The notes below the pieces were generated by a model. The model was not told the DNA's origin, searched no databases, and saw only the letters and a list, made by a program, of their open reading frames with translations. A DNA stretch of 64,000 nucleotides, taken from assembly GCA_904420025.1 (NCBI GenBank), contig CAJFTW010000147.1, positions 1 through 64,000 on the forward strand, read 5' to 3'. Both the position numbers and the translations under genes were made by a program. Source of the stretch: Candidatus Pseudolachnospira avium (GTDB taxonomy: Bacteria > Bacillota > Clostridia > Lachnospirales > Lachnospiraceae). Position 1 is the stretch's first letter; each line of letters starts with the position of its first letter. This document shows positions 4,920 through 58,564 of this stretch, in pieces.

Positions 4920-5876
4920 ATGAATTATGTGATTTTTGATCTGGAATGGAACCAGTGTCCCCAGGGAAAAGAAAAGGAAAACCCCAAGCTCCCCTTTGAG
5001 ATTGTGGAGATTGGCGCTATTAAGCTGAATGAGAATAGGGAAGAGATCGGAAGGTTTCAGGAAGTGATCCGCCCGCTGGTCTATCGTCGCCTGCATCATC
5101 GGACCAAAGAAGTCATTCATTTGGAGCAGGAGGAGCTGGATCAGGCCCGGACCTTCTCCCCGGTGGTACGGGATTTTCTGGCCTGGTGCGGGGAGGACTG
5201 CAAGTTTGTCACCTGGGGCAGCCTGGATCTCAGCGAGCTGCAGCGGAATATGGATTACTATCATATCCGGAATCCACTTCCCAATCCGCTGTTTTTTTAT
5301 GACCTCCAGAAAATGTTCAGCCTGCTCTACGATGACGGCAAAAGCCGGATGTCCCTGGAGCAGGCGGTGGAGTTCCTGGGCATTGAAAAGACCATCCCCT
5401 TCCACCGTGCCTTTGACGATACCTATTACACGGCGGAGGTCATGAAGCGGATGGACCTGGCCCAGGTGGAGCGGTATGAGTCGGTGGATTATCACCGGCT
5501 GCCGGCCAGCCGGAAGGAGGAAATCTATCGGGATTTCGGCACCTACACCAAATTTGTGTCCAAGACCTTTGCCAACAAGGAGGAGGCCATGGCGGACAAG
5601 GTGGTCACGTCCATGCGCTGCAGCCGGTGCGGCCTGCCGGTGTGGCGGCGGATCCGCTGGTTTTCCGCCGGGCCCAACACCTACCTGTCGCTGGTCCAGT
5701 GCCCCCGCCACGGCTATGTGAAGGGGAAAATCCGCATTAAGAAAAGCGGGGACGGGCGGATTTTTGTGGTGAAAACCATGAAGCCGGCAGATGAGGAGGC
5801 CGTGAAGAAGCTCCGGGAGAAAAAAGAACAGATCCGCCAGCGGCGGCGGGAGAGAAGAAAACGAGGAAAGAGATAA
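4920..5876 (+). CDS. DEDDh 3'-5' exonuclease domain protein (KapD/DnaQ-like)
   Basis: MNYVIFDLEWNQCP..PFEIVEIGAIKL..HRAFDDTYYTAEVMKRM. Confidence 0.8.
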   Translation: MNYVIFDLEWNQCPQGKEKENPKLPFEIVEIGAIKLNENREEIGRFQEVIRPLVYRRLHHRTKEVIHLEQEELDQARTFSPVVRDFLAWCGEDCKFVTWGSLDLSELQRNMDYYHIRNPLPNPLFFYDLQKMFSLLYDDGKSRMSLEQAVEFLGIEKTIPFHRAFDDTYYTAEVMKRMDLAQVERYESVDYHRLPASRKEEIYRDFGTYTKFVSKTFANKEEAMADKVVTSMRCSRCGLPVWRRIRWFSAGPNTYLSLVQCPRHGYVKGKIRIKKSGDGRIFVVKTMKPADEEAVKKLREKKEQIRQRRRERRKRGKR

Positions 5877-5889
5877 GGAGAGTGTCAGG

Positions 5890-7251
5890 ATGAAGAAATT
5901 GGGAGTGTGGCTGCTGGTATCCATGATGGCCGTGTCTGCCGTGCGGCCCGCAGAGGCAGCCGTGTGGCCCGAGGAGGCCATGGCGCAGGCGGACACGGTG
6001 CGGACGGAGGAAGAGGCATCGGAGGTCCTTTCCGTGGAGGTCCAGGCCCGTAGTGGGAGTCCGGTCCAAGACTATGTGACGCGTCTGTATCAGGTGGTTT
6101 TGGATCGAACGCCCCGGGCGGATGAGGTGAGCGATTGGGAAAGCCGGCTGGTAAGCGGGGCGAACACCGGCGCGGAGGTGGCGGCCGGCTTTGTGTTCAG
6201 CGATGAGTACCAGCGGAAGAACACCTCGGACGAGGCCTACGTGGACATGCTCTACCGGACCCTGCTGGGCCGGGAGCCAGATGCAGGCGGCAAAGCGGAC
6301 TGGCTGGGCTGGCTTTCGGTAGGCATCAGCCGCAGCGGCGTGTTTGCCGGTTTTGCCAACTCGGCGGAATTCCAGCGGATCTGCGATTCCTACGGTGTGG
6401 AGCGGGGCTCCTTTACCTCCGGGGAGATTGTGGACCGGAACTATGACGTGACCGCCTTTGTCAGCCGGATGTACACGGTGGTACTGAACCGCAGCTGGGA
6501 CCGGGGCGGCCTGTACGACTGGACCGGCCTGCTGCTGAACCATGAGATCAGCGGCCGGGACCTGGCCCGGGGCTTTTTCTTCAGCGCAGAGTTCCAGCGC
6601 AAGAATGTTTCCAATGAGGAGTTTGTGCGGATCTGCTACCGGACCTGCCTGAACCGGGAGCCGGACGAGGAGGGCTGGAACACCTGGATGGGCCAGCTGC
6701 AGAGCGGCGCCAGCCGGGAGTCGGTGCTGGACGGCTTTATAGGCTCCCGGGAGTACACGGCCCTTTGCCAGGAGTACGGTATTGAGCGGGGCAGCATTCC
6801 CTCCGCGGTCAGCTCCCGGCAGCAGCGGGTGGCGGACATTGCGGAGAGCAACAGCGGCACCGTGGCGGCGGTCCATGGCAAGTGCGCGGCCTGGGTCTCC
6901 GGCGTCTATGAGGCGGCGGGGGTGGGCTACCCCGGCGGCAACGCCATCGACTACTGGCATTACTGGAAGGACTCCGGCTCCACGGATCTCTCCAACATCC
7001 CGGTGGGGGCCGCCGTGGTGGGCAGCGGCTCTACCAGCAGCAGCGGCCGGACCTACGGCCATGTGGGCATCTACCTGGGCGGCGGACGCATTGCCCACAA
7101 CGTGGGCGGCAACCACGTGACCATCTCCTCCCTGGAGGAGTTTGCGGATTACTACTGCGAGGGGAACCTTTCCCAGTGCCCCTACAGCGCCTATCGGGGA
7201 ATGCAGGGGATCCTGGGCTGGGTGTGGCCCAACGGGCAGGCGCTGAACTGA
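5890..7251 (+). CDS. Secreted protein with DUF4214-type repeats and C-terminal CHAP-like domain
   Basis: Signal peptide; repeats YVTRLYQVVLDRTPRADEVSDW / YVDMLYRTLLGREPDAGGKADW / FVSRMYTVVLNRSWDRGGLYDW / FVRICYRTCLNREPDEEGWNTW; GKCAAWVSGVYEAAG...GHVGIYLGGGRIAHNVG. Confidence 0.75.
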   Translation: MKKLGVWLLVSMMAVSAVRPAEAAVWPEEAMAQADTVRTEEEASEVLSVEVQARSGSPVQDYVTRLYQVVLDRTPRADEVSDWESRLVSGANTGAEVAAGFVFSDEYQRKNTSDEAYVDMLYRTLLGREPDAGGKADWLGWLSVGISRSGVFAGFANSAEFQRICDSYGVERGSFTSGEIVDRNYDVTAFVSRMYTVVLNRSWDRGGLYDWTGLLLNHEISGRDLARGFFFSAEFQRKNVSNEEFVRICYRTCLNREPDEEGWNTWMGQLQSGASRESVLDGFIGSREYTALCQEYGIERGSIPSAVSSRQQRVADIAESNSGTVAAVHGKCAAWVSGVYEAAGVGYPGGNAIDYWHYWKDSGSTDLSNIPVGAAVVGSGSTSSSGRTYGHVGIYLGGGRIAHNVGGNHVTISSLEEFADYYCEGNLSQCPYSAYRGMQGILGWVWPNGQALN

Positions 7252-7350
7252 CCGGTTTCCGGAGCCATCTGTGCCGGAGGTAAAGCTGGAAATCCGGAGC
7301 AGTGCCAAGGGGGATACCGGAAAACGCTAAAAACCCGGGCCAGATTCCTC

Positions 7351-7379
7351 TTGCCAAATTTCCAAAAGTTTGATACACT
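7351..7379 (+). promoter_or_regulatory. Sigma-70-type promoter TTGCCA-N17-TACACT for riboswitch/mntP
   Basis: -35 at 7351-7356, -10 at 7374-7379. Confidence 0.6.
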
Positions 7380-7389
7380 GAACCCACGT

Positions 7390-7500
7390 AAGGGAGTAGT
7401 CAGCACGGGCGTGCGGCGATGCCAACACACTGGATTGGTTCCTGGCATCACCTTAATTGACGAGACTTATCTGTACAGACAGGTAAGCCTCGTCTTTTTT
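7390..7500 (+). promoter_or_regulatory. yybP-ykoY-type (Mn2+) riboswitch with terminator
   Basis: AAGGGAGTAGT...CCTGGCATCACCTTAATTGACGAGACTTATCTG..CAGGTAAGCCTCGTCTTTTTT, upstream of mntP; near-identical architecture at 43029. Confidence 0.8.
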
Positions 7501-7696
7501 ACTGTGAAAGCCCGGTCTCAAAGCAGAGATGGAACGGGCTGCTCGCAGACCGGGCCGTCTATGCTTTAGAGACGCTAACCTGTATGAGCAAGTAGGCCGA
7601 AGGCCGGATTGCGAATGCAGGAAGGATTGCGGGAGTGCGTAGCACGGAGCAATCCGAGGGCTTTCATGGTTGGTGATGCCCGCGCTAGCGGGCATG
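7500..7696 (-). repeat. Dispersed multi-hairpin intergenic repeat, full-length copy A (reverse orientation)
   Basis: Reverse complement matches 56431-56633 over most of its length. Confidence 0.8.
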
Positions 7697-7753
7697 GGTG
7701 TTTGCGCGATAGACCCGGCAGCTCCCGATCAAAAGCGTTGTGGGAGGTTACAG

Positions 7754-8314
7754 ATGAGAATTTGGGAATTGGCATTGATTGCGGTGGGACTGTCCATGGA
7801 CGCCTTTGCGGTGGCAGTATGTAAGGGCCTCTCCACCCCCAAGGTGGAGGGGAAGCACGCATGTATTGTGGGACTCTATTTTGGAGGCTTTCAGGCGCTG
7901 ATGCCCCTTCTGGGCTACCTGTTGGGCAGCCGCTTCCGGGTGTGGATTGAGAGTGTAGATCACTGGATTGCCTTCATTCTGCTGGCCATGATCGGCCTGA
8001 ATATGATCCGGGAATCCCGGGGAGAAGCGGAGCAGGTGGACGCATCCCTTTCCGTGAAGGCCATGGTGCCTCTGGCGGTGGCCACCAGCATAGACGCCCT
8101 GGCAGTGGGCATCTCCTTTGCGTTCCTGAATGTGAAGATTGTGCCGGCGGTGCTGCTGATTGGCGTGATCACCTTCGTCCTTTCGGCCCTGGGCGTGAAG
8201 CTGGGAAATGTTTTTGGCATGAAGTACAAGTCCAAGGCGGAGCTTTTGGGCGGCGTGGTGCTGATTCTCATGGGACTGAAGATCCTGCTGGAGCACCTGG
8301 GCATTCTGGGCTAG
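7754..8314 (+). CDS. mntP: Manganese efflux pump MntP
   Basis: [34 protein letters not shown]; preceded by Mn-type riboswitch. Confidence 0.92.
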
Positions 8315-8583
8315 GGAAGCGGGTCAAACAGCTTCAGCGGCGGAATTTCCAGCGCCCGGCAGAGGTTAAAGAAGGTCTCCATGGTCAGGCCCCGGACCCG
8401 GGTGCGGGATTCCAGAGAGCTGAGAAAGGAGCGGCTGATGTTTGCCCGGTGGGCCAGCTCCTCCTGGCTGAGCCCGGCCTTCTGCCGGTAATATTTGATG
8501 TGGGCAAACAGATCCAGGTAGGAGTCTACATTTTCAAAATGGATGGTGCCGCTTTTCTTGGAGGACTGAGGGGATTTGGCCAT
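8311..8583 (-). CDS. XRE-family transcriptional regulator
   Basis: [58 protein letters not shown]. Confidence 0.85.
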
Positions 8584-8976
8584 AGCGCGTTTATCTCCTG
8601 TATGATGGGAAAGCTGTATGGATAGGCTACTCCCCTATTGTATTCAAATTTCTAGTTTTCATAAATAAACAGAGCGCACACAAATGTTAACAGAGCGTTA
8701 CATTTGTTGCGTTTAGCTATGCTAGGGCCGGAAACGGCCCCGCTTTTGTCGCAAAATTTGCGTAGGATGATCGGTTTTCGTTGCGCAATCCGGGGCCATT
8801 CCCCCTACGCGGCAGAGTGCGGCCCTCTCTGGCAGGAAAAGAGTAGCGGCCGTGCATAAAGTGTGCTATGGTAGAGAAAGAAAAAAGTGAAGGGGATGGT
8901 TTACAAAAACGAGCGGTTCCTTCCTTCTCTCTTATAGAATTTGCAAATTCCAATCAGATTGAAGGAGGAAAACAGT

Positions 8977-11900
8977 ATGAATTATCAACGTGGAGACAAA
9001 GGGACCGTGATCCGCTGCGCACAGCACGCGCTGCACCTGATGCGGGTCTACCGGATGGACATTGACGATTCCTTCGGCCCGGGCATGGAGCAGGCAATCC
9101 TGGACTACCAGGCAGACCGGGAGCTGGAGGAGACCGGAACCCTGAATGACCAGACCTGGGAGTGCCTGAAGTCGGACGTGCTGCCGATCCAGCGTGCCCT
9201 GAAAAACAAAGGGTATTACAACGGCTCGGTGAACGGGATTGCCCTGACCAGCACCTACGAGGCGTTCCTGGAATTCCAGGAGGATAACGGCCTGGAGGTG
9301 GATGGGTTCTTCGGACCGGCCAGCCGCCAGGCCCTGTACGGAAGCAGCAGCGGCAGCTCCAGCGCCAGCGGGGACAATGCCCTTCCCTACGAAAGAGGGG
9401 ACCGGGGGAGCAATATTCTGGACCTGCAGGCGGGCCTGACCGTCCTGTGCTGCCACCCGGGAGACCTGGACGGCTCCTTTGGCCCCCAGGTGGAGGAAGC
9501 GGTCCGGGTATTTGAAAACAAATATGGCCTGGAGGAAAACGGCGTGTTTTCCAACAGCGATCTGCGGGAGATGCAGACCCAGCTGCGCCCCGTTCAGCAG
9601 GCGCTGGTGGAGGCGGGCTATGAGCTGCGGAATGTCACCGGAGCTCCGGACGAAAGCTTCTACCAGGTCCTGCGGGAGTTCCAGCGGGACCAGGGGCTGG
9701 TGGTGGACGGGCAGGCGGGCCCGGCAACCCGGGCGGCCCTGGGCATTGCCAAGGTTTACGGAAACGACGATTTTCCGCTGAGCCGGGGCAGTAAGGGCTA
9801 CAACGTGCTCTGCCTGCAGTACGCCCTGCGGATGGTGCAGATTGACCCCAACGGGTTTGACGGCTCCTTTGGCGGCGGCTGCGAATCGGCAGTGGAGCGC
9901 TACCAGGAGCGGAAAGGGCTGGAAACGGACGGCGTGGTGGGCACCAACACCTGGGAGGCTCTGCGCAAGGACATCCGGCCCATCCAGGAGGCCCTGATCA
10001 ACAAAGGCTATGACATTGGAGGCTCCGCAGACGGCGTTGCCACCCCGGACACCTACAATGCGGTGCTGGCGTTCCAGGAGGACAACGGCCTGGAGGTGGA
10101 TGGCCTGGTGGGAACCAGCACCAAGGCAGCCCTGGGCATTTCCAGCGATGGAACCGTCAGCAACATTACCTCCGCGGCGCTGCGCCGGGGGTCCAAGGGC
10201 CAGCTGGTCCGCTATCTGCAGAAGGTGTTCAACTATCTGGGCTACAGCCCCTCCATTGACGGCTCTTACGGCCCCGGCATGGAGGAAGAGGTAAAGCAGT
10301 TCCAGACGGATCACAGCCTGGAGGTGGACGGAAAATTTGGCCCGGCCAGCTGGAGCAAGCTGTTTGAGGTGTACAATCCCGGCTCCGGCACCGGCGTCCA
10401 GAAGCTGCTCAGCGTGGCGGAGCATGAGCTCTCCCTGGGCTTTGAGGAGGATACGGACAGCGACAACAATGCGCTGAACATTACACCCTATGGCCAGTGG
10501 TATGCCAGCGGCATGAACGGCCAGGCCTGGTGCGCCATGTTTGTGACCTTCTGTGCCAGAAAGGCCGGCCTGGCGGACACGGTGGTTCCGGTCTACTGCT
10601 ATTGCCCCACCGGCATGGAATGGTACCGCTCCCGGGGACGGTTCTTTACCCGCGGCAGCCATTATGTCCCGAAACCGGGGGATACCATTTTCTTCTACAG
10701 CTCGGATCTGGGACGGGTGGCCCACACCGGCCTGGTGGCGGAGGTGACCGATGATTACGTGTACACCATTGAGGGCAATGCGGCGGACGCGGTGCGCAAA
10801 CGCTACTACAATCGGGACGACACCAGCATTGAGGGCTATGGCTGCAATCAGACCGCGCCCCAGATGGAGGTTCGCCCCAAGGAGGAGGTGGACGAGGAGG
10901 TAAAGGCCATGTTCCGGAGCCTGCTGGGCTTCCACGGCTTCACCTACCTGGGCGGAGCGGCGGATTCTGTGGAAAACCAGGTATATATCTCCAGCGCATC
11001 GGAAAATGTGACGGCCCAGACCGGCCCGGGAACCGGCAGATCGGCCATGGGAACGGACGCCCGGTATTATACGGTGACGGATGGGGAGTATGATGAGATA
11101 ACGGATGGTCCTGTCCTGCAGCGCTATAAGCTGAATATTATGTTCCACTCCGAAGGGGATAAGCTGACGAATCTGGTGCAGGATATTGGCGCATTCCTTG
11201 GAAATGGCACCCTGGGAGTCCGTGCGGAGCGGGAGGGCGATTGGGCCGTTGTGAAGATTCTGTACTCCTTTGCCTATGAGAATACGGAAGGGGACACTGC
11301 CTATAAGTACCTTCTGGTCACCCATAAGATCACCCTTACCTCCTACGAGGAAATCCTGCTGGATATGACGGCGGTGAACGATGTGTGGAGCAATGCCAGC
11401 AGCCAGTTCCAGACCGATCCGTCCACGGAGCTGAATTTTGCCATGAACCGGATGTACAGCGGCCAGGAGTATCGGGACGGCTCCCTGACCTGGAATGAGT
11501 TTATGTACAGCGAGGTGACTATGTTCTACTTTGCCTCGGATGGGATTTACCGGGCGGCAATGATACGGGAAATTCTGGAAAAGCTGTATATTCCAACAAA
11601 TCCAGAGTGGTATCATCCAACGTCTGTTTCTGCAACAGGAATGGTGCGGTACCCGCTCTACCGTGATCCTGTGCTGCGGGTATACCTTTCCTGCGGGCCA
11701 ACGCTTACGTATGACACACATGCCAACGTAGTCGTTCCTTTGGACATTCAGGGGGGATTCATTCTTGATGAAAATATTTGGAAAGAGGCACAGGCCCTGC
11801 TGACAGCCGGAACTGAAAACAGCGCTGTCTCAACGATTGCGATGGGGGCAGAGAATGTGGCGGCTACTATTTATACGGGGAAGATCAGCATTGGGGTTAC

Positions 11901-18890: not shown

Positions 18891-19164
18891 GAAAAGACAG
18901 TATTCAGCGTGCATCAAAAGAAACGCTTATCCGAATCCAAAAAAGACAGGCGGAAAGCATCTGTGCGCGGAAATTGAATACGGCCTTTGTGGCTGCGGTT
19001 TCCTACTTCGTCCAACTGGGTCCAAGACACTTCCCCCTTTCTTTTTGTTATCATTTTGAGAGCATCCAGTAATACCAAAATGGTGATTTCTGGAAGCCCG
19101 CTGTTATTATACCGGAGATTGGGCTTTTTGGCAATCTTTTTGTAAAAAAATTTATCTAAACCTG

Positions 19165-19257
19165 CATGTCCGCTGGCGCGGGCACCACCAATCATGAAAG
19201 CCCTCCGGATTGCTCCGTGCTGCGCACTCCCGCAATCCGGGCTTTCAGAGTAAAAAA
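19165..19257 (+). repeat. Dispersed intergenic repeat, internally deleted copy B
   Basis: CATGTCCGCTGGCGCGGGCACCACC..ATGAAAGCCCTCCGGATTGCTCCGTGCTGCGCACTCCCGCAATCCGGGCTTTCAGAGTAAAA. Confidence 0.8.
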
Positions 19258-19410
19258 GCAGCAAAAAAGAAAATGGAGAAATACACAATATATACTTTTT
19301 ACAAAAAACTTACCCCAATTTTACGAAGGGCCTGTATACTGTGCGCTGTGTATAACAAGCCATTGCCGCAAACTGGGAATGGTATCCTGAGAGAGGAGGA
19401 GTAAAGCAAT

Positions 19411-40255: not shown

Positions 40256-42889
40256 TCAGACAGCTCCTCTGTGATGGCCGCGCTTGCGCACCAGGCCCAC
40301 GGCCTTGGCAATCTCCAGGATCACCAGCGGCGCCAGGATCAGCCCCAGACCCGCCAGATACAGGGGCAGGGGGAGCCGGATCAGGCCGAAGAGGGTGGAT
40401 AGGGGGGTAAACAGCACCACCAGCACCAGGGCGGTGGAGGCCAGGGCTGCCCGGTTCAGCTGCCGGTTGGTGAAGAAGCCAATCCGGAACAGGGAATGCT
40501 CGGAACGCATGTTGAAGGCCTGCACCACCTGGGAGAGGGCCAGCACCAGGAAGGCCAGGGTCTGCCCGCCCTCCAGCTGCCCGGTAAACCGGCGGCCCAG
40601 ATAGAAGGCAGCCAGCGTCAGAATGCCGAACAGAAAGCCCTGGAGAATAATCTGTACGCCAAAGCCGTGGGCAAACAGCCCTTCATCCCGGGGCTTGGGG
40701 CGCTGCTCCATAATGTCCTTCTCCACCGGCTCCATGCCCAGGGCAATGGCCGGCAGGCTGTCCGTGGCCAGGTTGATCAGCAGCAGCTGCATGGACAGCA
40801 GCGGAGACTGATGCCACAGGAGCATGGCAATGAACACGGAGAGCACCTCGCCGATGTTGGTCCCCAGCAGGAAGCCCACCACCTTCTTGATGTTGGCGTA
40901 AATGCCCCGGCCCTCCCGCACCGCGTCCACAATGGTGGCAAAGTTGTCGTCCGTCAGGGTCATATCCGCGGCGCCCTTGGCCACGTCCGTGCCGGTGATG
41001 CCCATGGCGCAGCCGATATCCGCCGCCTTCAGGGCGGGCGCGTCGTTGACGCCGTCCCCGGTCATGGATACAATCTGGCCCCGGCGCTGCCAGGCCTTGA
41101 CAATACGGATTTTGTTCTCCGGGGAGACCCGGGCATAGACGGAGATGTGCTCCACCGCCGCGTCCAGCTGCTCCTCGGTCATGGCGTCCAGCTCCGGCCC
41201 GGTGATGGCCTGATCCCCTTCCTGGAAGATGCCCAGCTCCCGGGCAATGGCGGAGGCGGTTATCACGTGGTCCCCGGTGATCATCACCGGCTTAATGCCG
41301 GCCTGGCGGCAGACGGCCACAGCCGCCTTGGCCTCCGGGCGGGGCGGGTCGATCATCCCCACCAGGCCCAGGAAGGTGAGCCCGCCTTCCAGCTCCTCCG
41401 GCGTGGGATTTTCCGGAATCTGGCCGATCTCTTTGTAGGCCACGGCCAGCACCCGCAGAGCATCCCGGCTCATGGCCTCCTGCATGTGGGAGGCGGTCTC
41501 CAGGTCGCCGGAGACACAGAGAGGGGCCATGCCGTCAAAGGCGCCCTTGACGATCACCACATTTTTCCCGTTGATCCGGTTGATTGTGCTCATCCGCTTG
41601 CGGTCCGAGTCAAAGGGGATCTCCGCCAAACGGGGGAAATCCCGGTTCAGCTCCTCCCGGGGCATGCCGTTTTTGTGGGCCGCCAGCACAATGGCCGTTT
41701 CCGTGGGATCGCCTATGTGCTGCTCCTCCCCGTTTTGGAACACTATGTTGCCGTCGCAGCACAGGGCGCCGTACTGCAGAAGCTTCCGGATGGCAGGGCT
41801 GTTTTCCGTGCCGATCTCCTCCGGGGAATCGGTGCCGGAGCTCCAGGCCTGTACCAGGGTCATGCGGTTCTGGGTCAGGGTGCCGGTTTTATCCGAACAG
41901 ATGACGGAGGCGCTGCCCAGGGTTTCCACGGCGGGGAGGCGGCGGATAATGGCGTTTTTCTTGGCCATCCGCTGGACGCCAATGGAGAGGACGATGGTCA
42001 CAATGGCCGGCAGCCCCTCCGGGATGGCGGATACCGCCAGGGAGACGGCGGTCATAAAAATCTCCAGGGCCGGAATGCCGTTGGCCATGCCCACCACAAA
42101 GATGACCGCGCAGGCGGCCAGGGCCAGTACGCCCAGGTATTTGCCCAGCTGGGCCAGCTTTTTCTGCAGGGGGGTCTGGGAGTCCTCCGCCTGGTTCAGC
42201 AGGTCGGCAATCTTGCCCATCTCCGTGTCCATGCCGGTGGCCGTGACCACCGCCTCCGCCGTGCCGTTGGTAATGCTGCAGCCGGAGAATACCATATTGC
42301 TGCGGTCCCCCAGCGGCGCGTTTTCCTCGGAGAGAATAGTGGCATCTTTTTCTGCCGGGACTGACTCGCCGGTGAGGGCGGATTCCTCGCTTTTCAGGCT
42401 GGCACTCTTTAGCAGCCGGGCATCCGCCGGGACAAAGTCCCCGGCCTCCAGCCGGATGATGTCCCCGGGCACCAGCTCCGCCGCGTCAATGATTTTTTCC
42501 GCCCCGTCCCGCAGGACACGGGCGTGGGGGGCAGACAGGCTTTTCAGTGCGTCCAGGGCCTTCTCTGCCTTGCTCTCCTGGATGACGCCCATGACGGCGT
42601 TGAGGATGACAATCAGCAGGATCAGCACCGGCTCAAAAAATTCTTTGGGCTCCCCTTCCACACAGGCCACCACAAAGGAAATAATGGCGGCGATAATCAG
42701 GATGATGATCATCACATCCCGGAATTGCTCCGCAAAGCGCTGGAGAGTCGTTTTCTTTTTGCCTTCCCGCAGACGGTTCTCCCCGTATTGGGAGCGGAGC
42801 TCCGGGATCTGGCTTTCCGGCAGGCCCCGGGCAGGGTCCGTGCGGAGCTCCTGCAGGACTTGCGAAGTGGTTTGGCTGTGAGCGTTCAT
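40256..42889 (-). CDS. Cation-translocating P-type ATPase (Ca2+/Mn2+ type)
   Basis: ALTGESVPAEKDA, ICSDKTGTLTQNRM, MTGDGVNDAPALKAADIGCAMG. Confidence 0.93.
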   Translation of the reverse strand: MNAHSQTTSQVLQELRTDPARGLPESQIPELRSQYGENRLREGKKKTTLQRFAEQFRDVMIIILIIAAIISFVVACVEGEPKEFFEPVLILLIVILNAVMGVIQESKAEKALDALKSLSAPHARVLRDGAEKIIDAAELVPGDIIRLEAGDFVPADARLLKSASLKSEESALTGESVPAEKDATILSEENAPLGDRSNMVFSGCSITNGTAEAVVTATGMDTEMGKIADLLNQAEDSQTPLQKKLAQLGKYLGVLALAACAVIFVVGMANGIPALEIFMTAVSLAVSAIPEGLPAIVTIVLSIGVQRMAKKNAIIRRLPAVETLGSASVICSDKTGTLTQNRMTLVQAWSSGTDSPEEIGTENSPAIRKLLQYGALCCDGNIVFQNGEEQHIGDPTETAIVLAAHKNGMPREELNRDFPRLAEIPFDSDRKRMSTINRINGKNVVIVKGAFDGMAPLCVSGDLETASHMQEAMSRDALRVLAVAYKEIGQIPENPTPEELEGGLTFLGLVGMIDPPRPEAKAAVAVCRQAGIKPVMITGDHVITASAIARELGIFQEGDQAITGPELDAMTEEQLDAAVEHISVYARVSPENKIRIVKAWQRRGQIVSMTGDGVNDAPALKAADIGCAMGITGTDVAKGAADMTLTDDNFATIVDAVREGRGIYANIKKVVGFLLGTNIGEVLSVFIAMLLWHQSPLLSMQLLLINLATDSLPAIALGMEPVEKDIMEQRPKPRDEGLFAHGFGVQIILQGFLFGILTLAAFYLGRRFTGQLEGGQTLAFLVLALSQVVQAFNMRSEHSLFRIGFFTNRQLNRAALASTALVLVVLFTPLSTLFGLIRLPLPLYLAGLGLILAPLVILEIAKAVGLVRKRGHHRGAV

Positions 42890-42910: not shown

Positions 42911-42944
42911 TTCATAGTTCGTGGTGCCCGCGTCAGCGGGCATG
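42911..42944 (-). repeat. Dispersed intergenic repeat, head fragment D
   Basis: Minus strand CATGCCCGCTGACGCGGGCACCACGAACTATGAAA. Confidence 0.65.
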
Positions 42945-43028: not shown

Positions 43029-43142
43029 ATAAGGGAGTAGTCGGCACCCCCGGGTGCGGCGGTATCAACAATAACGGCCTGGTTCCTGGTATCACCTTAA
43101 TCGACGAGACTTATCTGCCGCGGCAGGTAATGCTCGTTTTTT
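43029..43142 (+). promoter_or_regulatory. Second yybP-ykoY-type (Mn2+) riboswitch with terminator
   Basis: TAAGGGAGTAGTCGGCACC...CCTGGTATCACCTTAATCGACGAGACTTATCTGCCGCGGCAGGTAATGCTCGTTTTTT. Confidence 0.75.
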
Positions 43143-43180
43143 ATTCCTCCGCTGGCAGAAGTACAATGCCGAAAGGGGAA

Positions 43181-46297: not shown

Positions 46298-46344
46298 GAA
46301 GAAGATGGAAAATCCGGCCCAGGCCGGAACATAAAGCAAAGGCT

Positions 46345-46615
46345 GTGAAGAGAAGAGTACGCCCCAGGGCAGGCGGCAGAGATCCCCGGCAGCTGAAAAG
46401 GGGAGCCAGGCACTGCGGCGGAAGATGGTCTTGGAGCTGCGCACCGACTGCCGGGGACTGGCACAGGCTGCGACGGGAGCGCCCGTGAGCGCGCCGGGGT
46501 ATCGGAAGATCCTGTACTCCCAGAGGCTTTCCCTGTGAGGGGAGGGCAAAATCCAGGTGGTAACACGAAGCCAAGGCTCTCGTCCCGGAAAAACGGAGGA
46601 CGGGGGCCTTTTTGT
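46345..46615 (+). promoter_or_regulatory. T-box leader of metG
   Basis: T-box-like AATCCAGGTGGTAACACG then CTCTCGTCCCGGAAAAACGGAGGACGGGGGCCTTTTTG terminator directly upstream of metG. Confidence 0.88.
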
Positions 46616-55504: not shown

Positions 55505-55532
55505 CATGTCCGCTGACGCGGACACCATGAAC
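55505..55532 (+). repeat. Dispersed intergenic repeat, head fragment E
   Basis: CATGTCCGCTGACGCGGACACCATGAAC. Confidence 0.55.
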
Positions 55533-56405: not shown

Positions 56406-56430
56406 CAATCAAGGAATGGCAGTAAACCTA

Positions 56431-56633
56431 CATGCCCGCTGGCGCGGGCACCACCGGCCATGAAAGCCCTTCGGCTTGCTCCGTGCTTGCGCACTCCCGC
56501 AATCCTACCTGCATTCGTAATCCGGCCTATCGGCTTGCTTGCCCATACAGGTTAGCGTCGCTAAAGCATAAGCGGGCTAGCCTGCAAGCAGTCTGCCCGC
56601 TATGCTTTGCGACCGGGCTTTCAGAGTAAAAAG
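56431..56633 (+). repeat. Dispersed multi-hairpin intergenic repeat, full-length copy C
   Basis: Matches reverse complement of 7500-7696; paired arms GTCGC-tAAAGCAT...ATGCTTT-GCGAC and GAAAGCCC...GGGCTTTC. Confidence 0.82.
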
Positions 56634-56664
56634 TCCCCCGGAAAACACTTCCGGGGGATCAAGC
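56633..56664. terminator. Terminator hairpin between convergent genes
   Basis: TCCCCCGGAAAACACTTCCGGGGGATC. Confidence 0.6.
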
Positions 56665-56686: not shown

Positions 56687-58564
56687 TCATTTGCGCTCAG
56701 GCGGTTCAATCTTTTCCTTTTCCATCATCCGGTAGAGGGTAGTCCGGCTGATCCCCAGAAGTTCTGCCGTTTTCTTTTTATTGTAGCCAGTGATGGACAG
56801 CGCTTCTTTTAAACTGAGGGGCTGTGGCATATCGGTTTCTTTGTGCTTGTAAAGGGGTGCATTTTCAAGCATATTCTGTCTCAGAATGTCTGCGCCGACA
56901 CAGTCTGTCTCATTGATCACACCGATCCGGTAAATCATATTTTGCAGCTCCCGTACATTGCCGGGCCATTGATACCGGAGGATTTCTTCTTTCGCTTCCG
57001 GGGAAAAAAAGAAATTTTTCCCCTGCCGAAGGGAGGCTTGCTTTAGGAACTCTTCCGCCAGCAGGAGGGCGTCATTTTCCCGCTGGCAAAGCGGTGGTAT
57101 CCGCAGGTTAAGGACATTCAGGCGAAAATACAGATCCTCCCGGAATTTTCCCTGTGGAACCAGCTCGACCAGGTTTTTATTTGTGGCGGCAATGACCCGA
57201 ATGTCAATGGGGATTGGATTTTCGTCTCCCAAACGGCGAATTTGGCTTTCCTGCAAAACCCGGAGCAGTTTGCCCTGCAGCGAGTAAGGGATTTCTCCAA
57301 TTTCATCCAGAAAAATGGTCCCTTTATGAGCGGCTTCAAACAACCCTTTTTTCCCATCTTTGGAAGCACCGGTGAAAGCGCCCTTTACATAACCGAATAA
57401 TTCGCTTTCCAGAATATTCTCCGGAATAGAGGCACAGTTTACGGCCACAAAAGGGCCGGAGCTTCTGGGGCCGGCACTGTGGATCCCCTGGGCATAAAGC
57501 TCCTTCCCGGTACCGGTATCTCCCAGAATCAGGACATTTTCCTGGGAGTTTGCATATTTCAAAGCAAGCTTCAATGTATCGGTAATACAACGGCTGCTGC
57601 CCTGAATATCGGAGAGGGTATAGGTAGTCACATTTTCCCGTTGTGCAAGGCGCCGCCGGACAGCCAATTCCGATGCGGCAACCGCATCGGTATCCTGGAA
57701 GGTAACTAAGACATAATTCAGCAGTCCATTGCGAAATACAGGTTCTGCGTGATAAAGGAAAAAGCGGCCATTGATCTGTGCAATCTGGTTTTTGTAGGGA
57801 ACCTGATTCTCAATGCAGTCCATAATTTTGGTAAATTGGGGGCACACCTCCGATACCGTGTTGGGGGAGATGGACATGGCATGGATCCCCAGATAATCGG
57901 CGGCCACTTTGTTGAGGACAACCAAGGTCCCGTCTGGCTGAACGGTCATAATGGCATAAATAGAGGAACGGGTTCTGCTTCGATCCTCAGCCCGGTCTGT
58001 GCTTAAGAAAGAGCGGGCTGTCTCAATGGCCTGGAGGATCGCTTCCCGGCGCGGACTCAACACAAGGGTCTTCAAACCGTATTTTTCTGCAATGCCCGCT
58101 TGGTAGCAGCCGCCGATAAAAACGTCTACATCCGTGAGCGCCTGAATTGTCTCCGGCATCTGCGAAATGGGCGGGTTGGCTTTCCATATCAGATGAATGT
58201 TCAGAAGGGGATGGATCCGGTTCAGAAGCTTCATGGTTTTGGTAAATCCCATGACGGCAATTCGGTTTCCTATATGGGAAGCCTGGACAAGAGCTTGAAA
58301 GATGTCCTCTTCCTCTATACTCAGAGCAATAACGGGACAGGTAACTGCCCGGCGTACAAATTTGCCAGTGATCCCGAAGGAAATGAAAATTTTTGTGCCC
58401 CGTCGTTCCAATTTGCGGGCATCCTCCTCTAAGGTTTCCTGCGTGGTATAAACAAGGCCGCAATCCCGGTCTTTATCTTGAATGACGGTTTGGGCCAATT
58501 CATAGATCGGCTTATCCCAGGTAATCAACACAATTTCTTTTGCAATTTCCGTTATGTCTTTCAT
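56687..58564 (-). CDS. Sigma54-dependent PrpR-N/PAS/AAA+/Fis regulator
   Basis: GDTGTGKELYAQGIHSAGPRSSGPFVAVNCASIPENILESELFGYVKGAFTGA; C-term HTH KKKTAELLGISRTTLYRMM. Confidence 0.9.
   Translation of the reverse strand: MKDITEIAKEIVLITWDKPIYELAQTVIQDKDRDCGLVYTTQETLEEDARKLERRGTKIFISFGITGKFVRRAVTCPVIALSIEEEDIFQALVQASHIGNRIAVMGFTKTMKLLNRIHPLLNIHLIWKANPPISQMPETIQALTDVDVFIGGCYQAGIAEKYGLKTLVLSPRREAILQAIETARSFLSTDRAEDRSRTRSSIYAIMTVQPDGTLVVLNKVAADYLGIHAMSISPNTVSEVCPQFTKIMDCIENQVPYKNQIAQINGRFFLYHAEPVFRNGLLNYVLVTFQDTDAVAASELAVRRRLAQRENVTTYTLSDIQGSSRCITDTLKLALKYANSQENVLILGDTGTGKELYAQGIHSAGPRSSGPFVAVNCASIPENILESELFGYVKGAFTGASKDGKKGLFEAAHKGTIFLDEIGEIPYSLQGKLLRVLQESQIRRLGDENPIPIDIRVIAATNKNLVELVPQGKFREDLYFRLNVLNLRIPPLCQRENDALLLAEEFLKQASLRQGKNFFFSPEAKEEILRYQWPGNVRELQNMIYRIGVINETDCVGADILRQNMLENAPLYKHKETDMPQPLSLKEALSITGYNKKKTAELLGISRTTLYRMMEKEKIEPPERK

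Follow-up and report, generated by a model that had tools for sequence, protein, structure and literature searches.

Clostridiales-1 RNA (RF01699) was introduced by Weinberg et al. 2010 (PMC2864571), with Clostridiales and the human gut as listed hosts. The table of that paper gives it a 'y' for structured RNA and an 'n' in each of the two regulatory columns. Ever since 2010 it has figured as a candidate structured RNA to which no function is assigned, and it is filed as an sRNA gene, whereas the copies in this analysis form a dispersed and partly demonstrably mobile repeat. No paper treating RF01699 as mobile was found in a literature search limited to journals accessible without subscription.

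The bcr1 group of Bacillus cereus repeats likewise comprises short non-coding chromosomal sequences with tens of copies that are thought to be mobile; a TTTAT motif is connected with their mobility, and they are described as confined to the B. cereus group (PMC6542083). A T-rich motif is common to both, as TTTAT target in bcr and as TTTAC/GGTTT ends in the subfamily of our window. However, bcr repeats differ in sequence and hosts, while RF01699 spans many genera and its GATACC subfamily generates duplications of 7-8 bp. MITEs need only their ends for mobility. The GATACC subfamily resembles them in its length of about 180-210 bp, the absence of a gene, terminal inverted repeats, target duplications and within-genome amplification. 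In contrast to MITEs, the interior fold of RF01699 is conserved across genera, the subfamily of the window lacks duplications and no cognate autonomous element was found for the RF01699 repeat. REP elements with their RAYTs (PMC3733652) are small intergenic palindromes of high copy number as well, but the hairpin that we call head is flanked by GGTGRTG ... TGNAGGTTT, with neither a GTAG (or GGAG) tag nor a Y1 transposase found in the genome.

Results

The window repeat belongs to RF01699

The window is the whole stretch of 64,000 nt that was analysed. An earlier note, made from the letters alone, had described a dispersed repeat family with copies at 56431-56633 and 7500-7696, a short copy near 19165-19257 and two head fragments, all of which were found (Table 1). 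The strands need to be exchanged: in the Rfam sense, the 56 kb copy reads on minus and the 7.5 kb copy on plus. Both full copies match the whole Rfam model (positions 1-166) well above the curated cutoff of 48 bits, and membership of the window repeat in RF01699 is certain. Such a match to a known family is an outcome which the earlier note had counted against its proposal. The short 19 kb copy remains below the cutoff (35.3 bits, match 19198-19333) because its internal hairpins are missing.

Table 1. Copies and parts of the repeat in the window. The ends of the element at 56424..56630 are the points where conservation drops and are not duplicated.
Feature	Position	Strand	Remarks
Full element, GAAAGCC subfamily	56424..56630	-	TTTACTCT, RF01699 fold, head hairpin and 3' end TGTAGGTTT
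RF01699 core of 56 kb copy	56462..56622	-	100.3 bits (Rfam match 56622-56462)
Head hairpin of 56 kb copy	56433..56450	-	forms the 3' hairpin of the element; not covered by the Rfam model
Intrinsic terminator	56628..56658	-	GC-rich hairpin and T run, directly upstream of 56 kb element
Full element, GAAAGCC subfamily	7498..7703	+	between leader terminator and MntP-like manganese efflux pump gene
RF01699 core of 7.5 kb copy	7506..7665	+	117 bits
Head hairpin of 7.5 kb copy	7677..7694	+	
Intrinsic terminator	7459..7500	+	hairpin and T run, directly upstream of 7.5 kb element
Short copy	19158..19254	-	outer ends, last core hairpin and head hairpin retained; internal hairpins missing
Solo head hairpin	42925..42942	+	fragment of element 3' end, located shortly ahead of the start of a cation ATPase gene (40256-42889, minus)
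Solo head hairpin	55507..55524	-	just upstream of the start (55542) of a plus-strand alpha/beta hydrolase gene

A genome-wide search, which had been suggested beforehand, yielded 30 matches above the cutoff, or 59 when E<=1 is applied, in the genome of the window (G000; 164 contigs totalling 3.07 Mb, 77% complete). The true copy number is probably higher than 30, because several copies sit at contig ends. RF01699 occurs at E<=1e-6 in 60 of 120 species sampled from the bacterial family, with at most 21 candidates scored and at most 21 matches shown per genome. Some species hold 20-60 copies and none were detected in half of the sample. Bit scores and lengths of the copies are near-uniform inside each of the genomes G040, G113 and G004, as expected for separate amplifications. 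The 20-base element end has no exact match in viral contigs. Plasmids gave no match, and the window copy matched no phage. The phage search with a GATACC copy matched nine gut fragments.

The layout of the window subfamily, referred to as GAAAGCC, was derived from an alignment of ten copies from the own genome and five from two other genera. It consists of TTTACTNT-GAAAGCC, a long hairpin, two more hairpins, GGCTTTC, ATGG..., the head hairpin TGCCCGCGYCAGCGGGCA and TGNAGGTTT. The Rfam model leaves out TTTACTNT at the 5' side as well as the head hairpin at the 3' side. The pair GAAAGCCC/GGGCTTTC, previously taken for a terminal inverted repeat, is the closing stem of the fold. Conserved sequence extends from TTTACTNT upstream to GGTTT past the head hairpin and fades beyond the T run on the 5' side and beyond GGTTT on the 3' side; that pair is therefore internal and the true ends lie further out.

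The head hairpin is part of the 3' end of the element. Its pattern matches six times in the window (0.37 expected from shuffles) and 48 times in the genome, compared to no match for the reversed control pattern. Many of the head hairpins among the loci read have no full element attached. Since most of these retain part of GGGCTTTCATGG, they look like 5'-truncated element copies. As a separate observation, six solo head hairpins precede a candidate start codon by 26-39 bases, in antisense direction and near the ribosome binding site, by a permissive rule that 20-24% of random positions pass per direction (loci: 42925-42942, 55507-55524, L041, L044, L045, L049, L054, L056).

Surroundings of the window copies

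The terminator upstream of the 56 kb element lies at the end of a minus-strand sigma-54 activator gene (56687-58564). In the empty-site comparison, the gene order around this copy differs in G001 and G002. The stretch 5308-9808 is 98.2% identical over 4.5 kb to a contig of another species of the genus (G002:C60, L199), most other aligned stretches reaching 70-89%. This could reflect recent transfer or a misbinned contig. Because of this difference in identity, we did not count the locus as an independent orthologous site for the 7.5 kb copy.

Two similar plus-strand leaders (7391-7500 and 43029-43146) share the order GGGAGTAGTC...GGTTCCTGG...CACCTTAAT.GACGAGACTTATC, behind which lie a hairpin and a T run. 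The former precedes the MntP-like pump gene, the latter an ORF resembling a TetR-type regulator by eye. Both recall the yybP-ykoY manganese riboswitch in appearance; neither matches RF00080 in Rfam, the closest family being SSRC10 below its cutoff. A T-box leader match on the plus strand (46336-46590) reaches 60.1 bits, below the cutoff of 93.

The fold is under selection

Two paired changes had been reported between the copies, and both are correct. The head carries GCCCGC/GCGGGC or GTCCGC/GCGGAC, while GTCGC/GCGAC versus GTCTC/GAGAC is located in the long hairpin. In the alignment of 15 copies, both partners have changed in 11 of 61 pairs and pairing holds in 96.0% of cells (92.9% in shuffles), neither value being reached in 500 shuffles. 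A second alignment of 32 sequences comprises about 31 genomes at a mean column identity of 48%. Here compensatory changes are found in 21/26 core pairs, the share of paired cells is 96.5%, and a covariation score of 0.529 compares with 0.179 in shuffles (0/500 reach it). Relatedness alone can let sequences exceed such shuffles even if they lack structure. When the partners were slid by 1-3 columns, which keeps relatedness, pairing dropped to 29-43% and the covariation score to 0.117 at most. The RF01699 fold is under selection, as the earlier note had proposed.

Wobble pairs make up only 1.2% of cells in the 32-sequence alignment, a low share that would agree with selection acting on DNA palindromes or on RNA alike. 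In single-sequence folds they account for 2.5% on the sense strand and 1.2% on the antisense strand (49 vs 24). This excess on the Rfam strand would fit an RNA.

GATACC copies are probably mobile in other genera

The near-uniform copies in G040, G113 and G004 have sharp ends, with GATACCAGGGTCAAAAGG at the 5' side and inverted GATGTNGGGGTCAAAAGG at the 3' side (GATAGAAGCGTCAAAAGG in G113). This GATACC element spans GATACCAGGGTCAAAAGG to CCTTTTGACCCCNACATC in several genera of the bacterial family, and its terminal inverted repeats (GATNCCAGGGTCAAAAGG / GATGTNGGGGTCAAAAGG) are imperfect. An exact target duplication of 7-8 bp flanks 27 of 35 GATACC-type copies from several genomes, whereas 5000 permutations of the 3' flanks yielded 1.57 such copies on average and never more than 7. 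Duplicated targets are rich in A/T and roughly read ATNNNAT. The genome of the window itself contains a GATACC-type copy with an exact 7-bp duplication (L001), and a second duplication (L002) was read from the flanks. Moreover, two intergenic sites with syntenic flanking genes carry elements in G029 and none in its congener G152, a comparison between different species with diverged intergenic DNA that is not base-exact. Mobility of the GATACC subfamily in other genera is well supported.

Short GATACC copies without core retain ends and duplication and may have been shortened by deletion once inserted. The element copies also include tandem arrays and internally deleted forms. One locus in G040 (L103) exhibits a head-to-tail GATACC array with a unit of 146 bp in at least three copies. 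Some copies (e.g. L127, L122, L102) start directly behind promoter-like sequence, which in L127 consists of TTGACA, 17 bases and TATAAT. A promoter-box score of at least 9 was obtained for 13/35 GATACC copies and for 4/35 when DNA 100 bases upstream was scored. This preference is only suggestive. Judged from such motifs, host promoters may transcribe GATACC elements.

GAAAGCC copies often lie behind terminators

The GAAAGCC subfamily of the window shares the core with GATACC and differs in the ends (TTTACTNT-GAAAGCC ... head hairpin-GGTTT). Its copies have TTT flanks at both ends. With regard to terminal inverted repeats, TGAAAGCCCGGTCGC and TGCATGCCCGCTGGC are only weakly similar by eye. No offset gives a signal for a target duplication in 14 copies from the own genome. 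Because the duplication test failed, we do not file GAAAGCC as a MITE.

A strong terminator (threshold 12) is located directly upstream in 12/31 GAAAGCC flanks, two of which (L101, L103) are probable false pattern matches. The same holds for only 2/35 GATACC-type copies and for 47/1688 (2.8%) control TTT|AC sites, which include coding DNA and inflate the contrast, such that the effect size is approximate. It is conceivable, though we would not favour it, that GAAAGCC moves by another route than GATACC, at terminator T runs. An RNA intermediate, a single-strand mechanism of the IS200/IS605 type or bcr-like recombination of the TTTAT type are examples of such a route and, taken jointly, are equally tentative. 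Group IIC introns do insert at terminators (PMC4424553). The terminators, the TTT flanks without duplication and the many 3'-only fragments would agree with such a route. On the other hand, no reverse transcriptase, intron or Y1 gene is tied to the elements, and Rfam gives no group II intron match within the window. In addition, insertion preference and selective retention in a safe place behind terminators lead to the same expected picture and cannot be told apart.

Search for a partner enzyme

The earlier note had suggested a RAYT-like transposase as partner. No Y1 tyrosine transposase (PF01797) matched in G000, the only genome searched for it and 77% complete. The alternatives named in that note, a REP/MITE or a structured-RNA family, hold in part: mobility is well supported in other genera, but the RAYT-type enzyme was not found in G000. 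Three further families were searched in overlapping sets of 8-10 genomes each. IS256 matched in 5 of 10 genomes, ISL3 in 3 of 10 at E<=0.001 and DDE_Tnp_1 in 7 of 8, and the fetched loci of all three are devoid of the ends of the element. At the loci examined, GATACC ends with a non-element continuation turned out to be element copies and fragments only.

Discussion

We consider the repeat to represent short non-coding, non-autonomous mobile elements carrying the RF01699 fold, with a probability of about 0.78. The GATACC element would insert at A/T-rich sites (ATNNNAT) and thereby duplicate 7-8 bp, and a transposase supplied in trans would act on its ends. GAAAGCC copies would likewise be dispersed by insertion, and the fold would serve the element. 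Against this reading stands that no autonomous partner was found, neither a Y1 in G000 nor one at the IS256, ISL3 and DDE_Tnp_1 loci, that the window subfamily has no target duplication and that transposition was not observed. Moreover, strong interior covariation across genera is unexpected if only the ends are needed, and could mean that the RF01699 RNA has a function of its own.

The RF01699 core might also be a structured module that was mobilised by at least two different sets of ends and insertion modes, its fold being needed for spread as RNA or as single-stranded DNA. We regard this as somewhat doubtful, and equally the pair of modes it would comprise: one at A/T-rich sites with 7-8 bp duplication, the other at terminator T runs without duplication.

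That RF01699 is primarily a functional RNA, either a cis-regulator or an sRNA, which was multiplied by ordinary duplication and retained its fold for a host function, is improbable. Very strong covariation across genera and conserved unpaired positions are what such an RNA would exhibit. Wobble pairs slightly favour the sense strand, and some copies reside in leaders, e.g. ahead of the mntP-like gene. However, precise 7-8 bp duplications are found at unrelated sites and the element is absent at orthologous sites in a congener. Likewise, 20-60 copies in some species next to none detected in half of those sampled speak against it, as does the lack of a common neighbouring gene among the copies examined in a non-systematic comparison. 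A REP/RAYT system of tyrosine-transposase palindromes, with the long copies as REP composites, is very unlikely in spite of 48 head hairpins, many of them solo, and a short palindrome with conserved asymmetric flank, since G000 has no Y1 transposase, the GTAG tag is lacking and the solo heads usually retain part of the GGGCTTTCATGG junction and thus look like element fragments.

Returning to the mobile, non-autonomous element, the new aspect of this analysis is that young RF01699 copies in other genera are MITE-like. The orphan "small RNA" RF01699 probably represents a family of mobile elements whose fold is unusually well preserved. Provided that the copies are mobile, calling each of them an sRNA gene is misleading and copy counts are no longer evidence for regulation. 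The question would rather be why a transposable repeat retains its covarying fold in dozens of genera. A direct route to test this in culturable gut bacteria is offered by young copies that have clean target duplications.
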